A stretch of DNA of 23,585 bases, taken from IMG/VR virus record IMGVR_UViG_3300022673_000005, positions 1 to 23,585 of that record. One strand, given 5' to 3'. A program made the translations under genes and the position numbers. This document shows positions 12,203-17,433 of the stretch, piece after piece. This DNA is from a virus. The notes beneath the pieces were generated by a model that worked only from the letters and a program-made list of their open reading frames with translations, made no database searches and was not told where the DNA came from. The first letter of the stretch is position 1. Every line of letters starts with the position of its first letter.

Positions 12203-12838
12203 TTAATCACTATTTTTGATAAAAGCAAAGCTTACTATATCATCGCGTCCTGCTTCGGTTTCACAGGCATTGCACTCGACCATAGAAAATTTATGCCGCA
12301 ACATCCAAGACACGAAGCCACCACGCTCAAAATAGTACAAATGCTCACCAGGTTTGTAATGTTTCCAGGTTAATACATCGTTAATATTTTGAATGATTGG
12401 TATTGATGTGAACAAATAATCACCTGGCTTTATGCGCTGAAAATAACTAATTGGTTCCGGTACGTGCTCGATCACATCCCAAAACGTGAATGCGCGGAAA
12501 TCACCAAAACACTCACTGTATAACTTGTTGCTTTTTAACCAGTTAACGGCGTGCTCGTTCACATCGTAGCCATAAGTACCCGGTCTAGTTTTAATAAATT
12601 CCCCGTTACCAATACCGACGTCTAAAACTGAGCCGGTATGATATTTATCCACAAAAAACCTTCTTGCTTTATTAATTTCTTCGGCGACTTGAGAACCTGA
12701 ATAACCTTCATACTTAAGAAAGTAATCACGATCATAGGACGCGGTAATCTTCATGTCTCGCTGATAAGCGACGCCCACGTAAGGCATGATCAGCAAATCG
12801 GCTTTTGTGTATCCGTACCGCTTTATGATTTCATCCAT
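12203..12838 (-). CDS. Class I SAM-dependent methyltransferase
   Basis: A 211-aa protein with a Rossmann methyltransferase core. Motif I is VLDVGIGNGEF at residues 71-81 (SAM-binding loop). The acidic end of strand 2 appears as GYDVN at 90-94. Residues 119-129 read FWDVIEHVPEP, the post-strand-4 motif typical of methyltransferases of the UbiE/Methyltransf_23 type. HLYYF at 166-170 is also common in sugar and small-molecule methyltransferases of that type. It overlaps the GT29-like gene by 16 bases and has GGAG 8 bases before its ATG. As the last gene of a cassette of glycosyltransferase-like genes, an O-methyl cap on a glycan is a reasonable inference; a DNA or protein substrate is not excluded. 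No DNA-methyltransferase catalytic motif (DPPY/NPPF) is visible. Confidence 0.85.
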   Translation of the reverse strand: MDEIIKRYGYTKADLLIMPYVGVAYQRDMKITASYDRDYFLKYEGYSGSQVAEEINKARRFFVDKYHTGSVLDVGIGNGEFIKTRPGTYGYDVNEHAVNWLKSNKLYSECFGDFRAFTFWDVIEHVPEPISYFQRIKPGDYLFTSIPIIQNINDVLTWKHYKPGEHLYYFERGGFVSWMLRHKFSMVECNACETEAGRDDIVSFAFIKNSD

Positions 12839-13512
12839 GTCGTTTGCTCCATAATATGGTTAAGTTTATCGTCAACGCTGATTGGATGTTGGAACCTATG
12901 ATACTTCAACCAATTTAACTCAGCTTCAGGGTCATGGCCGATAGGATCGGACGGATCAATACCGCGCCAAGCTTCATCAACGTTGTGAATGCGTGACTGA
13001 AAAAAATCAAACCCCGTAATATAAATATGCTCAGGTTCGGTTTTTACTATATCTAAGATAGCGGCGAACCCTGTTGTTGGTACGCGCTTATTGAGTAGAT
13101 GAAATTTCTCGTTAAAGTGAGTTAGATCGGGAACAAAAGTTGGGCAAAACCAAAAATCTTTACGGTGATAATAAATATACCGGTAATCAATGCCAAACAA
13201 CTTCATGCGCTTAGCATGCCAATGTGAGCTTTTTAATATCTTGGCATCAGGACATTTGCAAACACAAAGACCTACACCGTCACTTTGCAATTGTTCTTTT
13301 GTTTTGGCGATTGACTTACCATAAAAAGAATAATGAACATCTGTTCTATAGCCTGTAGGCTCGCTTAACTTATAGTTGTTAACGCGAACAACAACGTCAA
13401 AACTATCAATGAATCCTGGCTCGTTATCTAATACACCTGGACCGCTACCAACAATAGCTACTCGCTTATTGTGAAACCTCTGCTTCAAAAGCAACCAGTC
13501 GTTGAAAATCAT
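12823..13512 (-). CDS. GT29 (sialyltransferase)-like glycosyltransferase
   Basis: A 229-aa protein. Residues 16-59 resemble the sialyltransferase large motif: basic residues, then VAIVGSGPGVLDNEPGFID, then FDVVVRVNNYKL and GYRTDVHY. Residues 144-171 resemble the small motif: VPTTGFAAILDIVK followed by EHIYITGFDFF. A later HDPEAELNWL (193-202) supplies a His/Glu pair as seen in bacterial relatives. GT29 enzymes transfer sialic acid from CMP-sugar; distant bacterial and phage members may use other sugars, so donor and acceptor are unknown. The ATG at 13512 overlaps the GT9-like gene by 47 bases and has only a weak Shine-Dalgarno. It is shorter than eukaryotic family members and has no signal or membrane segment, so it probably acts in the cytoplasm. 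Confidence 0.68.
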   Translation of the reverse strand: MIFNDWLLLKQRFHNKRVAIVGSGPGVLDNEPGFIDSFDVVVRVNNYKLSEPTGYRTDVHYSFYGKSIAKTKEQLQSDGVGLCVCKCPDAKILKSSHWHAKRMKLFGIDYRYIYYHRKDFWFCPTFVPDLTHFNEKFHLLNKRVPTTGFAAILDIVKTEPEHIYITGFDFFQSRIHNVDEAWRGIDPSDPIGHDPEAELNWLKYHRFQHPISVDDKLNHIMEQTTWMKS

Positions 13513-14263
13513 CTATTACTCGCTTGACCGCATCCGGTCTCCAATCATCATAAACATAAAACTCTTTACCGGTATTTTGCAGCATTTTTCGAGGTATCAA
13601 TTGCCGCACAAATTTATGCTTATCTCTTGCGGCTGCGCGAGAAAAAACATATAAAGCTGGCTTATTAAAGGATTCTGATAAGGGCATAAAAAAAGAAGGA
13701 TAACCAATAAACCCGTCTACTTGCGAGGCAATATCAATAAGCTCGGCAATACTGGTTTTGTTGGCTAAGTTAATATCAATATTTTTAAATTTGAATAAAG
13801 GCTCACCTGCGCCTAGCTGAATATAACAGGCTTTTATTTTATTGATAATGTATTGGATTACGCTGCAATCGGGCAGAATGGTGTTTCCGTATCCGTCTGT
13901 TCTTCCCATGGGGTTTCGAGGCAACAACACGGCAATCGTAGGTTTCCTTGGCCGTTTAGCAAGTAGTGAAGAGGGCTTCCAATCAAGGCGTAATTCCGTA
14001 TCTTGCGGTATACCTGCTGTAATGCAGCAATCTTGGAATTGTGTTGTTTCTTCTGATTTGCGCGTAGTGTACACAGCCAAAATATCAATATTCTCTCGCG
14101 AAAACGGGACGACATTAACATCGAGTTGGCTAAAAATATCTGGATAATTAGAGCATACATTAAGAATATCATCCCTCTCTTTAAGTAGGTATCTAACAAC
14201 ACCCTGCAAATAAAGACTGTCTCCTAATCCGCTACCACAACGAATCCTTTTAACTAGGCTCAC
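13466..14263 (-). CDS. GT9 (heptosyltransferase)-like glycosyltransferase
   Basis: A 265-aa protein with a GT-B layout. The N-terminal GSGLGDSLYLQGVVRYL (residues 10-26) matches the Gly-rich first loop of the GT9/ADP-heptose:LPS heptosyltransferase family (G-x-G-D). The C-terminal half has YIQLGAGEPLFKF (about 147-159), then TSIAELIDIASQVDGFIGYP and SFFMPLSESFNKPALYVFS, the nucleotide-sugar-binding half seen in that family. It is shorter than typical heptosyltransferases (about 320-350 aa). I choose the GTG at 14263 because AAGGAG (14272-14277) is 8 bases away; the TTG one codon earlier would leave only 5. It overlaps the upstream gene by 14 bases. Transfer of a sugar to a surface or virion glycan is inferred; the exact substrates cannot be read from the sequence. 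Confidence 0.7.
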   Translation of the reverse strand: MSLVKRIRCGSGLGDSLYLQGVVRYLLKERDDILNVCSNYPDIFSQLDVNVVPFSRENIDILAVYTTRKSEETTQFQDCCITAGIPQDTELRLDWKPSSLLAKRPRKPTIAVLLPRNPMGRTDGYGNTILPDCSVIQYIINKIKACYIQLGAGEPLFKFKNIDINLANKTSIAELIDIASQVDGFIGYPSFFMPLSESFNKPALYVFSRAAARDKHKFVRQLIPRKMLQNTGKEFYVYDDWRPDAVKRVIDDFQRLVAFEAEVSQ

Positions 14264-14846
14264 CAAACACGCTCCTTGTCCACCCTGACATTGATTTCAC
14301 GTTATCATGAAAATCCACATCGGCTAATAATTCCTTGCGATAATGGTCAATTACTTCTGTTTTAACCATAGCTCGCGAGGGTTGATTACCATTATAACAC
14401 CCAGGGTCTAACGGCATCCCACATAGCACCACCAAATCAAACCCCATATAAGAAGCCACGCGCCTAGCACCCCAACCGCTTGTTGCTCCACCTGCGCCGT
14501 ATTTCCACCAATAATCAACGAAAGGCTTGTATTCGCGAAGTTTTCCGAATGCCGTCTTATCTTTCGCGGTGCCGGCTGAATGGCAGGTAAATTCATCATG
14601 AAAGCGCTGCTGTGCGCGTATCCATTTTGGAAATTTAGCGGGGTGTTGTGTGAATAGTGCAAAAGCTTGAGTGTAGTTTGCTGCACCGTTTACGGCGATT
14701 ACAGGGGCATCAGGGAATAACCGTCTTGCTCGTTGGTAATCATCATGTAAGCAAAAAGCATTACCTAAAACTAAAACGGTGCCTGAATGTTTGAAAGGAT
14801 ACCGAGGTAATGATTCTGGACCGCTTTTCTTTTTCTGTTTATCCAT
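14250..14846 (-). CDS. DUF115/MptE-like Rossmann protein, first gene of the glycan cassette
   Basis: A 198-aa protein. Motifs in order: VLVLGNAFCLHDD (24-36), VIAVNGAANYT (49-59), then TSGWGARRVASYMGFDLVVLCGMPLD in two parts (122-135 and 136-147). This order (nucleotide-binding start, V-x-A-V-N-G, [ST]-G-W/L-x-A ... A/C-G-x-P) fits the DUF115/6-hydroxymethylpterin-pyrophosphokinase-MptE-like fold, often found beside glycosyltransferases in surface-sugar loci. A frame extending upstream to a TTG at 14888 would start inside a terminator stem, so I use the ATG at 14846 (MDKQKKK). That ATG has no clear Shine-Dalgarno and lies 15 bases after the terminator U tract, so expression may be low or conditional. 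The exact reaction is unknown. Confidence 0.65.
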   Translation of the reverse strand: MDKQKKKSGPESLPRYPFKHSGTVLVLGNAFCLHDDYQRARRLFPDAPVIAVNGAANYTQAFALFTQHPAKFPKWIRAQQRFHDEFTCHSAGTAKDKTAFGKLREYKPFVDYWWKYGAGGATSGWGARRVASYMGFDLVVLCGMPLDPGCYNGNQPSRAMVKTEVIDHYRKELLADVDFHDNVKSMSGWTRSVFGEPS

Positions 14847-14861
14847 GAAATGTAAGTGTAC

Positions 14862-14902
14862 AAAAAAATACCCCGACTGCGTAAACAATCAGGGTATTTT
14901 TT
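14862..14902 (-). terminator. Strong intrinsic terminator after the capsid unit
   Basis: On the transcribed (minus) strand 17 consecutive pairs form from 14902-14886 with 14879-14863, including six A-U at the base, ACCC/GGGT in the middle and two G-U wobbles, closed by a 6-base loop. A run of seven U follows (14868-14862). The plus strand would have A-C mismatches at both wobble positions, though it too ends in a T run, so weak bidirectional action is possible. It sits 26 bases after the stop of the 123-aa gene and just before the cargo cassette. Confidence 0.88.
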
Positions 14903-15350: not shown

Positions 15351-16250
15351 TTATTCGGTATCTGCGGTTGCGATTGCTGTTGTGTCGTTTAGGTTCGACT
15401 CAATCACGCCTGTGGTATCAATCAAACACGCGCCACCACTCATAACGTGGTTAACAAAATGTGAGTGACGATCACCATGCCAAGTAATATCAGCAGATAC
15501 GCCTTGATTACCTGCAATGTTACCAGCGTGCTTCAATGTTGCATATCCCATTGAATTCTTGTGATAAGCGAACATTTTAGCCGTAGCCGTACCTTTGCCT
15601 GGACAACCAGTGTGAACCTTCCAAAGAACGCCGTTCCAGTTACGCCAGCGACCACCAACAGGAGCGCCCTCAGTGAACGGCATACCAGTAACCGATACAT
15701 AGTCAGAGCTTGAAAACTCTTTAAATGTACAAGCTTGTGAATGACCGCGGGGGGTTAATACAGCATAACGCTGGCCATCGTTAGGCACGTCGTTATCGTC
15801 TAGCGCTTCACAAATTTGTGTGAGCGTGTTTCGGATAGCCGCCGCACTCGTCACGGTCCACGAAATAGTGCTTTCAGAAGTGCCGTCTGCTGCTGTTAGG
15901 ATTTGATCGTCAACTTTACGACCTAACGCCCATGCGCCACCCTTAGCAACTGCCATGCGCTCATCGTGGTTGACTTTGGCCTCATCTAACTTGTCGACCC
16001 AATCACCCGCAAAGAAATCATCCAAAGGACATTCGATAGCGGTATGGTCTTGGTTCATTGGCGTGATAACACCGTGACGGGCTTTAGTTGTCGCCGTGCC
16101 GGTGCCGATTTTTTGGAAAGTTGTGGAATAACCTACAACATTGTCTTTAGTTCGTACTGAATTACGAAGAAATCCACCTTGGCGTTGGAAAACGTGGTGT
16201 ACATCTCGCTCGTAATCACGAACAAAGGATTGATCAATAGTGGTACTCAT
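15351..16250 (-). CDS. Major capsid protein
   Basis: A 299-aa protein, shell subunit of the head (T7 gp10A is 345 aa). The N-terminal part has VFQRQGGFLRNSVRTKD (20-36), then an ATTKARHGVITPMNQDHTA stretch and DDFFAGDWVDKLDEAKVNHD followed by RMAVAKGGAWALGRKVDDQI (about 77-117). This is the order of the Phage_capsid_2 type (Pfam PF19821, from memory): FQRQG-S, IG-x-x-x-A, N-x-x-H, D-x-VDKLDE, ALGR-x-x-D. AAGGTG lies 7 bases before the ATG. It follows the scaffold gene directly, as in most podophages, but after a 166-base gap containing a structured RNA. Two likely reasons for that gap are a stable leader for high expression or an mRNA processing site. Confidence 0.9.
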   Translation of the reverse strand: MSTTIDQSFVRDYERDVHHVFQRQGGFLRNSVRTKDNVVGYSTTFQKIGTGTATTKARHGVITPMNQDHTAIECPLDDFFAGDWVDKLDEAKVNHDERMAVAKGGAWALGRKVDDQILTAADGTSESTISWTVTSAAAIRNTLTQICEALDDNDVPNDGQRYAVLTPRGHSQACTFKEFSSSDYVSVTGMPFTEGAPVGGRWRNWNGVLWKVHTGCPGKGTATAKMFAYHKNSMGYATLKHAGNIAGNQGVSADITWHGDRHSHFVNHVMSGGACLIDTTGVIESNLNDTTAIATADTE

Positions 16251-16257
16251 AGCATTT

Positions 16258-16263
16258 CACCTT
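16258..16263 (-). promoter_or_regulatory. Shine-Dalgarno of the major capsid gene
   Basis: AAGGTG 7 bases before the ATG at 16250, within an AT-rich leader of about 75 bases that follows the three-way-junction RNA. It fixes the capsid start. Confidence 0.75.
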
Positions 16264-16289: not shown

Positions 16290-16306
16290 GGTTAAGTTTA
16301 GGTTAA
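16290..16306 (-). repeat. GGTTAA direct repeat, one helical turn apart, in the capsid leader
   Basis: On the plus strand GGTTAA occurs at 16290-16295 and 16301-16306, 11 bases start to start; a related GTTAA lies at 16275-16279. The spacing places the copies on the same DNA face. It could be a protein-binding site or chance in an AT-rich leader. Confidence 0.3.
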
Positions 16307-16325
16307 AATGCGTCCATACAGTGGG

Positions 16326-16384
16326 CCGGGTAACGTGCCGTTTTGTCTGCGGGTTTAGCCGGAAACTAAACTCACGCTACCCAG
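16326..16384 (-). ncRNA. Three-way-junction structured RNA in the major capsid leader
   Basis: On the transcribed strand the outer stem pairs 16384-16373 with 16337-16326 (12 bp, two G-U wobbles). Inside it, helix 2 pairs 16371-16366 with 16358-16353 (GUUUAG/CUAAAC, extendable by two U-G pairs), and helix 3 pairs 16352-16350 with 16340-16338 (CCG/CGG, 9-base loop). Only one base (16372) is unpaired at the junction. On the plus strand the outer stem would contain A-C mismatches where the minus strand has G-U, so it is the transcript of the structural operon that folds well. No U tract follows, so it is not an ordinary terminator. I do not recognise a known RNA family. Confidence 0.6.
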
Positions 16385-16416
16385 GTTATCAGGATGCGCT
16401 TTGTAGATACCGAGAA

Positions 16417-17409
16417 TTAACTATCGCCGTAATACTGCTTTGATTTTCTGGCACGCTCATCGAATAATCTATTCGCTTTTGCGTTATTGCCAGCATTCAA
16501 CGCGGCTTGAGCTTCCTCGGTTAACCGTTCTTGCTCTGCTTCGAATGACTCTTGATCTGCTTGAGTCATGATCGTTTGCAATCCACCCTCACCCATTTTG
16601 CGACCAATGTCGGAAAACACTTTGATGAAAGCTGGATGATTAACAAGCTCTACACCTTCATATGTAGCATTTGTGAGCGCACTTGTAAACTCTTCGTTCG
16701 CAAATTGTTTAAAACCGCGCTGTGCGTAGTTGTTGTTTTTCTCGAATTCATCGCCCCATTCATTTTTGAGTGCGGTATCAGCTTTGGCTATATTTTCCTC
16801 AAACTGAGCAGAATCCGCCTTGTGACCTTCCACTATGCGGTTTAATGTATAATCAATGATCGATTTTGCTTGCTCTGGTGTGGATCCAGTTTCATGCAGC
16901 ATGGTTTTCATGTCGCCGATTATTGGTTGCAATTCATCCACGTTGACGGTTTCCGGCCAATCCGATGTATCAGGCATTTGGTAGCTGTAACCTTCTGCTG
17001 AATCAGGGACACCAAGCGCTTTACGGTAAGCCGCTTTCTCTTCATCAGTAGCATTTTTACCAATCTTAGGGATAACATTTGATAGTTTCTGTCTGAATTC
17101 AAATGCTGTTTTGAGTGCGTCCTGTGGTGTGTTGAATTGCTCAGAAAACTTTTTAAGGTTTCCATCGGTAATTTCATCGCGCCATGATGCAGAGGTGGTT
17201 ACTTGACCTTGGCCCTCACCTTCACCTTCACCTTGGCCTTCTCCGGCACCGCCCTGGCCTTGGCCTTGGCCTTCGCCTGTACCACCTTCACCCTGGCCGC
17301 CTTGGCCTTCACCTTCTCCGGTTCCCGCGCCGCCTTCGCCGCCCTGGCCTTCGCCGCCTGCTTGTTCCCAATATCCACGTGCTAACAATTGTTGAAGTAA
17401 TCGATTCAT
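16417..17409 (-). CDS. Capsid scaffolding protein with Gly/Glu/Gln tract
   Basis: A 330-aa acidic protein (T7 gp9 is 307 aa) that would guide capsid assembly and leave the head. Residues 18-69 consist only of Gly, Glu, Gln, Ala and Thr. The rest is helical and polar: KKFSEQFNTPQDALKTAFEF, then a segment with GVPDSAEGYSYQMPDTSDWP (about 129-148), and a C-terminal coiled coil from about 285, rich in Glu/Gln/Ala, with a short basic end. The D/E-rich helical body plus 'GVPDSAEGY' type segment is usual for scaffolds of this group. Position between portal and capsid supports it. AAGGA lies 10 bases before the ATG. Confidence 0.85.
   Translation of the reverse strand: MNRLLQQLLARGYWEQAGGEGQGGEGGAGTGEGEGQGGQGEGGTGEGQGQGQGGAGEGQGEGEGEGQGQVTTSASWRDEITDGNLKKFSEQFNTPQDALKTAFEFRQKLSNVIPKIGKNATDEEKAAYRKALGVPDSAEGYSYQMPDTSDWPETVNVDELQPIIGDMKTMLHETGSTPEQAKSIIDYTLNRIVEGHKADSAQFEENIAKADTALKNEWGDEFEKNNNYAQRGFKQFANEEFTSALTNATYEGVELVNHPAFIKVFSDIGRKMGEGGLQTIMTQADQESFEAEQERLTEEAQAALNAGNNAKANRLFDERARKSKQYYGDS
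17203..17358 (-). repeat. Low-complexity coding repeat (Gly-Glu-Gly-Gln) in the scaffold gene
   Basis: 156 bases of GGN-GAA/CAA-type codons encoding 52 residues drawn only from Gly, Glu, Gln, Ala and Thr. The repeat unit is irregular (GEGQ, GQGEG, GGAG), with varied third bases, so it looks old or selected at the protein level rather than recent slippage. Confidence 0.85.
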
Positions 17410-17433
17410 ATTGAATTTATCCTTGTGCCGGTA

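Follow-up and report, generated by a model that had tools for sequence, protein, structure and literature searches.

A conserved leader RNA with a recurrent internal loop precedes capsid genes of podovirus-like phages and may act as a translational switch

Introduction

Phages need capsid protein in large amounts and timed relative to the scaffold, and how tailed phages set the level of capsid post-transcriptionally is, to our knowledge, poorly known. The window that we analyzed, a 23,585-nucleotide stretch of viral DNA (positions 1 to 23,585 of IMG/VR record IMGVR_UViG_3300022673_000005), raises this question at a single locus, where a folded element at 16326-16384 sits between the gene in the scaffold position and the major capsid gene. 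An initial annotation of this DNA described the element as a compact three-way-junction RNA. Here we ask what this RNA looks like, whether the capsid genes of other phages are preceded by it, and what it may do for the gene that follows.

Results

The initial annotation located the element just upstream of the major capsid gene, a placement that the gene product bears out. Specifically, the minus-strand gene at 15351-16250, which lies 3' of the leader, codes for a protein that matches Pfam PF19821 (Phage_capsid_2, E 2e-53) and PHROG 3437 (major head protein, E 7e-50). Upstream of the leader is a second minus-strand gene (16417-17409) that has its stop at 16417, 14 nt before the basal stem P1 described below. 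The product of this gene has no Pfam match, and its PHROG matches are confined to groups of unknown function or groups labeled 'protease'. Since a capsid assembly gene occupies the same place in MEP301, we infer from gene order that this product is a putative scaffold. The Gly/Glu/Gln-rich N-terminal stretch of the same protein is encoded by a low-complexity DNA repeat (17184-17414), and the protein retrieved no relatives when used as a query. Elsewhere in the window, the minus-strand region between the head and tail genes (12203-14888) contains glycosyltransferase-like (Glyco_transf_29), methyltransferase and unknown genes. The window contains no tRNA or tmRNA, a repeat search of it found no further copies of the element, and a search of phage records by DNA similarity found no relatives of it.

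When folded in the capsid sense (minus strand, 16384-16326) the element reaches -29.0 kcal/mol with a z score of -5.3, and none of 200 dinucleotide shuffles folded as well, as compared to a z score of only -2.2 when the same positions are folded as the plus strand. The 12-bp outer stem that had been described (P2, CUGGGUAGCGUG/CACGUUACCCGG) is indeed present, and the two positions in it that depart from Watson-Crick pairing read U-G and G-U in the capsid sense. However, the two hairpins with a single unpaired junction base that were thought to be enclosed by this stem did not hold up. The three-way junction folds at -22.7 kcal/mol, falling 6.3 kcal/mol short of a simple rod, and it has an ensemble probability of 2e-5 versus 0.65 for the rod fold built from GUUU/AAAC, GUUU/AGAC and CGG/CCG helices. 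Energy and ensemble probability thus do not support a compact three-way junction at 16326-16384, the top of the element being a rod. The GUUU/AGAC helix, as read from the sequence, is present in the relative L002 too. An intrinsic terminator was ruled out, as the initial annotation had it, by the absence of a U tract after the stems and of any terminator-like site at the element in a scan.

Analysis of the whole leader revealed that the element is larger than 16326-16384 and reaches beyond it in both directions, to P1 and to a Shine-Dalgarno-hiding helix. The complete unit, which is on the minus strand and spans 16402-16252, is built on the basal stem P1, which a 2x5 internal loop with AC facing CCCAC separates from the 12-bp P2 stem, and it also includes the helix that hides the Shine-Dalgarno sequence. 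In the MFE fold of the leader the P1 5' strand AAAGCGCAUCC (16392-16402), the lower half of which competes with the Shine-Dalgarno helix, is paired as AAAG.GC.UCC..AUA with UGU..GGA.GC.UUUU of the P1 3' strand GGACGCAUUUU (16305-16315), and this stem covaries both in six relatives and in 80 members of the class described below. P1 is followed by the AC strand of the internal loop (16385-16386), by the P2 5' strand (16373-16384), for which there is evidence from the fold and from covariation in six relatives, and by the apical rod (16338-16372), which replaces a hairpin, H3, of full-length class members. The return path is formed by the P2 3' strand (16326-16337) and by the CCCAC strand of the loop (16321-16325), which is invariant in the six relatives (alignment A8). 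Finally, local folding defines the 5' strand GCAUUUUAACCU (16300-16311) and the 3' strand AAGGUGAAAUGC (16252-16263) of the Shine-Dalgarno-hiding helix, the latter containing the Shine-Dalgarno AAGGUG. A 2x5 loop is present in the MFE folds of the window, L001, L005 and L234.

We explored how widespread this structure is by using the window capsid protein as a query, which retrieved 80 viral contigs and 17 genome contigs, and by using L002 and L001 as queries, which added 142 further loci. This provided 128 distinct leaders in all, the window and phage records included. The leaders have a recurrent set of motifs (for example GACGGCUCACCCGAAAGGCCCCGUC ... GCCCCGGU ... GUCGGCCCCGAAAGGCUUACCCGAC ... 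ACCGGCUCACCUGAAGG ... AGUGUCC ... GAGAGGACAU-AUG) that resolves into the helices H1, P1, P2 and H3. Full-length members begin with hairpin H1 and continue into a long arm, P1-P2, that bears hairpin H3, and they contain the 2x5 loop three times, once each in H1, H3 and the P1/P2 junction. The loop has CC (or AC, GC) opposite CUCAC (or CUUAC, CCCAC, CACCC, UAUCC; there are also some 4-nt forms), with the 5-nt strand coming first in H1 and second at P1/P2 and in H3. Its recurrence is also observed in alignment-free analyses, as MFE folds contain the loop in 22 of 128 leaders versus 4 of 1920 shuffles, and contain two or more loops in 13 of 128 leaders versus none of the 1920 shuffles. A hairpin descriptor finds at least two modules in 48% of leaders, the corresponding values being 5% for shuffles and 1.7% for coding controls.

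Covariance models locate this RNA in 82 of the 128 distinct leaders. Model R1, built from 17 leaders, was run on 502 kb and gave 57 matches with E up to 1. All of these are on the capsid-sense strand, and the only ones away from a capsid start are extra copies in L028 and L036/L091 plus a match in L049, where the capsid match starts only at residue 14. Model R2, built from 43 leaders, recovers, at E<0.01, 33 of the 44 distinct leaders that it had not seen. Strong model matches are in the capsid leader on the capsid-sense strand, with the exception of copies upstream of HNH-like genes. The weaker R2 matches away from a capsid leader (L045:251-375, L042:1606-1729 and L026:1589-1711, E 4e-4 to 0.014) represent either a degenerate second copy or chance. 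The match in L045 spans the start of the scaffold-position gene. An RNA class located upstream of the capsid genes in a large group of podovirus-like phages is well supported.

Several loci have additional features. In L028 (2067-2989) and L036 (1975-2986), as well as in L091, an endonuclease-like ORF (PHROG 1035, endonuclease VII, with an HNH-like motif by eye) lies between two copies of the leader RNA, and its reading frame crosses the second copy, the one before the capsid gene. This arrangement suggests a homing element through which the leader was brought in or duplicated. L064, which belongs to the same contig group as L126, has a group I intron at 2318-2951 (Rfam RF00028, 51.3 bits) located 3' of its leader RNA match at 2100-2286, and the capsid gene seems to be split by this intron after roughly codon 13. 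L049 and L185 are similar in that their capsid match runs only from residue 14, and a comparison of L049 with Rfam gave no match.

Eight tested leaders from phage records (isolates and one faecal clone) have no significant model match. The capsid leader of Alteromonas phage ZP6 (L087) has two hairpins with GUAG-containing asymmetric loops after a perfect TTGACA-17-TATAAT promoter; it is similar in architecture, differs in sequence, is missed by the models, and may be a cultured phage's analog of the leader.

A first pattern scan with GGCCCACTG... gave eight chance matches and was discarded. A second, gene-blind scan was unspecific, with mostly chance matches, and was used only where R2 support or a partial match coincided with a capsid-like ORF. 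Among the matches listed for it, the motif precedes a capsid-like gene by 22 nt in L294, 20 nt in L263 and 32 nt in L332, and it is near the divergent capsid-like genes of L275, L305, L311 and L335. In L294 and L311 the protein is a distant relative within the same capsid superfamily. The R2 E value is 0.006 for L294, the other matches are weak alone and those of L332 and L335 are partial, so the relevance of these loci comes from the place of the motif before capsid-like genes and not from the R2 score.

The proposed helices are also reflected in how the leaders vary. In alignment A4 (43 leaders), which like A6 and A7 was fitted to the structure, 89% of cells are paired versus 71% after shuffling, there are 200 double changes versus 54, and 21 of 24 pairs covary. 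A set of 34 leaders outside the model gave 91% paired cells versus 74% in shuffled controls, again with covariation at 21 of 24 pairs. When 80 leaders were analyzed against a phylogenetic null that redistributes substitutions on the tree, the top six of 7,875 column pairs were proposed base pairs belonging to H1, P1, P2, the P2/H3 link and H3, and no other pair was significant. RNAalifold also recovered H1, P2 and H3 from a plain, unfitted MAFFT alignment without being told of them. The initial annotation had named lack of covariation and conservation in homologous leaders as grounds for giving up the fold; the strong covariation observed here speaks for keeping it.

We specifically addressed whether the window element belongs to this class. 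R1 scores the window leader at only 3.3 bits (E 0.11 on 251 nt, not significant) and the element is absent from the listed R2 matches on the window. As the main-class models miss it, the case for membership is made by the subfamily model R3 together with shared architecture. R3 describes a subfamily characterized by GGCCCAC, which is common to the window and its nearest relatives (AACCUG or GACCUG is also found in L001, L002 and L234), and it was built from an alignment of six relatives with the window left out. In an unfitted alignment of these six relatives without the window, 11 of 16 pairs covary and 90% of cells are paired versus 68% after shuffling. The top R3 match in the window, at 16399-16308 on the minus strand, has 24.7 bits and an E value of 1.1e-6 over the whole window, a value to be read with the relatives and structure having been picked after the window had been studied; the next match has 9.9 bits (E 0.21). 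R3 also recovers the unseen leaders L134, L093, L095, L004, L069 and L092 (E 8e-8 to 0.03), and it matches the main-class leaders L050, L043, L239 and L027 at their P1-P2 domain. Because a model made without the window both finds this element and reaches main-class leaders, the element is, judged by its sequence, a shortened and diverged member that keeps the P1/P2 copy of the loop and is without recognizable H1 and H3 loops. Indeed, the window leader contains no hairpin module with a further loop copy and the apical rod has no 2x5 loop. Failure of the main-class models and unrecognizable H1 and H3 would also be expected of a chance or generic intergenic structure unrelated to the class. However, such a structure would not be expected to give the R3 E value noted above, a z score of -5.3, a loop of the 2x5 kind that arises in only 2 of 2000 shuffles of the window leader, and the same place before the same gene. 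This explanation, already disfavored, is thus highly improbable, and the window element is almost certainly a conserved functional RNA of the capsid-leader class.

In six leaders (L029, L054, L077, L025, L078 and L036) there is a sigma-70-like promoter (TTGACA-17/18-TATATT-like), and the end of its -10 box is exactly 6 nt ahead of the RNA, which would place the start of the transcript at the foot of H1. In the window, a general promoter scan lists no minus-strand site near 16400-16440. Two or three interrupted hairpins near a promoter are an outline that resembles put RNAs, and the leader could in principle work on transcription as an HK022 put-type antitermination leader or as an attenuator. 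However, the stems have no U tract after them, the RNA goes with the capsid gene and not with early promoters, and the conserved pairing partner is the Shine-Dalgarno right before the start codon, so a transcription-level role is very unlikely.

The pairing of the Shine-Dalgarno was analyzed with a local hairpin test, as its mean unpaired probability over whole leaders shows only a small difference (0.19 vs 0.26). The hairpin right after P1 pairs the Shine-Dalgarno with a mean z score of -1.95 over 39 leaders (Wilcoxon 5e-8), relative to -0.36 in the coding control. In the window the corresponding region (16313-16251) folds at -12.8 kcal/mol (z -3.0, p 0.006), with GCAUUUUAACCU pairing with AGGUGAAAUGC, and the GCAUUUU within this helix doubles as part of the 3' strand of P1. 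In the window, a fold with full P1 is about 4.5 kcal/mol less favorable than the one with the Shine-Dalgarno helix. Reuse of at least 2 of 4 P1 3' nucleotides is observed in 60 of 69 leaders; the null is high for this sharing (63% vs 87% observed), and a partner near the start codon has a null of 43% vs 74% observed. P1, strand sharing and a paired Shine-Dalgarno are found together in 46 of the 69 leaders. L001 and L002, the closest relatives of the window, have no clear Shine-Dalgarno hairpin (z 1.4 and -0.45, respectively), which makes the general case weaker.

This build of the leader suggests control over when the ribosome may begin the capsid protein, and from the anatomy we infer that the leader is probably a translational switch in which P1 and the Shine-Dalgarno helix are alternatives. 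The initial annotation had offered four readings, namely a 5' stability element, an RNase III site like those in T7 late mRNA, a protein-binding leader that autoregulates capsid, and a novel structured RNA. Covariation, conservation before capsid genes and the Shine-Dalgarno helix favor the last of these and a regulatory capsid leader, whereas a pure RNase III or stability reading predicts neither that the 2x5 loop would recur nor that a helix over the ribosome-binding site would be conserved. An element that stabilizes or processes the 5' end (an RNase III site or a 5' hairpin) and shields abundant capsid mRNA, with no regulation involved, would fit with H1 being the very 5' end in the six leaders that have a recognizable promoter, and with the long, nearly perfect stem in the window. 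However, it leaves the repeated conserved loop, the Shine-Dalgarno helix and the strand sharing unexplained, and occlusion of the Shine-Dalgarno, unless relieved, would decrease capsid output and not increase it. We thus consider a purely protective role unlikely.

Discussion

The best overall explanation of these leaders is, in our judgment and with somewhat better than even confidence, a translational switch between P1 and the Shine-Dalgarno helix. A closed P1 would leave the Shine-Dalgarno free, and when P1 is open its 3' strand would hide the Shine-Dalgarno. A putative ligand at the 2x5 loops would stabilize P1 in competition with the Shine-Dalgarno helix, and the balance that it sets would time or limit capsid synthesis. 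The copy of the loop that is kept in the window is the one adjoining the Shine-Dalgarno and ribosome-binding site. If the leader is a switch, its ligand is, given the threefold repetition of the site, more probably a protein than a metabolite, with a phage protein, scaffold or capsid, as the candidate. Given a switch, the odds also lean slightly toward a ligand that turns translation on.

A riboswitch that senses a nucleotide or other small molecule and gates capsid translation would share with this switch a conserved core and a translational expression platform with competing helices. However, three copies of one loop in separate helices, only one of which is kept in the window, are unexpected for a single-pocket aptamer, and the controlled gene is structural, not metabolic. 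A metabolite sensor thus has a low probability.

In its working the capsid-leader RNA would resemble several known translational leaders, and by the tests applied it belongs to none of them. As the initial annotation stated, it corresponds to no known family: Rfam 15 at gathering score gave no match in the window or in 16 relatives, and no leader match was obtained at E 0.5 in L041, L074, L234 and L052. A JUMPstart hit (14.1 bits vs a cut-off of 35) was dismissed as chance.

The coat-protein operators of the RNA phages MS2/R17 and Qbeta are single hairpins with an unpaired interruption near the ribosome-binding site of the replicase gene. The leaders described here likewise have an interrupted hairpin close to the ribosome-binding site of a phage gene, but they are present in tailed DNA phages, have a repeated 2x5 loop, and form the capsid gene's own leader, with protein binding being putative. 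T4 gp32, gp43 and RegA are autogenous translational repressors with known binding proteins. Their targets are similar in that a phage mRNA leader governs initiation of translation, which in the present case is a putative function; they differ in structure and in the genes involved, and the binding protein is established for the T4 systems and only proposed here. As in translational riboswitches that sequester the Shine-Dalgarno, a strand of the basal stem is reused by the Shine-Dalgarno-hiding helix, but there is a repeated loop instead of one pocket, there is no Rfam match, and the ligand is only proposed. The T7 gene 10 leader has a T7 RNA polymerase promoter and an RNase III processing hairpin. 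By analogy it too is a structure just upstream of a podovirus capsid gene, from which the leaders described here differ in that the T7 leader carries that promoter and that processing hairpin. Finally, the candidate structured RNAs manA, wcaG and PhotoRC-II of marine phages are also structured leaders found in phages and metagenomes, but these are associated with metabolic or photosynthesis genes and not with a capsid gene, the word 'capsid' being absent from the main text of that study (PMC2864571).

A search of the open-access literature (subscription papers and preprints lie outside its coverage) found no description of a capsid-leader RNA. It is thus apparently an undescribed RNA that is widespread before the capsid genes of many uncultured phages. 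We know of no conserved structured switch described earlier on the capsid gene of a tailed phage, and this class would be the first if the switch is true. In its fullest form, the proposal that a promoter-proximal leader with a threefold 2x5 loop switches capsid translation in tailed phages, is read by a capsid-assembly protein, and constitutes a new and widespread class is tentative. A conserved leader that Rfam lacks, on the capsid genes of a large group of environmental phages, would open a direct route to the control of capsid level, and three like loops would, if the proposal is true, provide a tractable new RNA-ligand system. The leader RNA would also serve as a marker for capsid genes in unannotated phage sequence.
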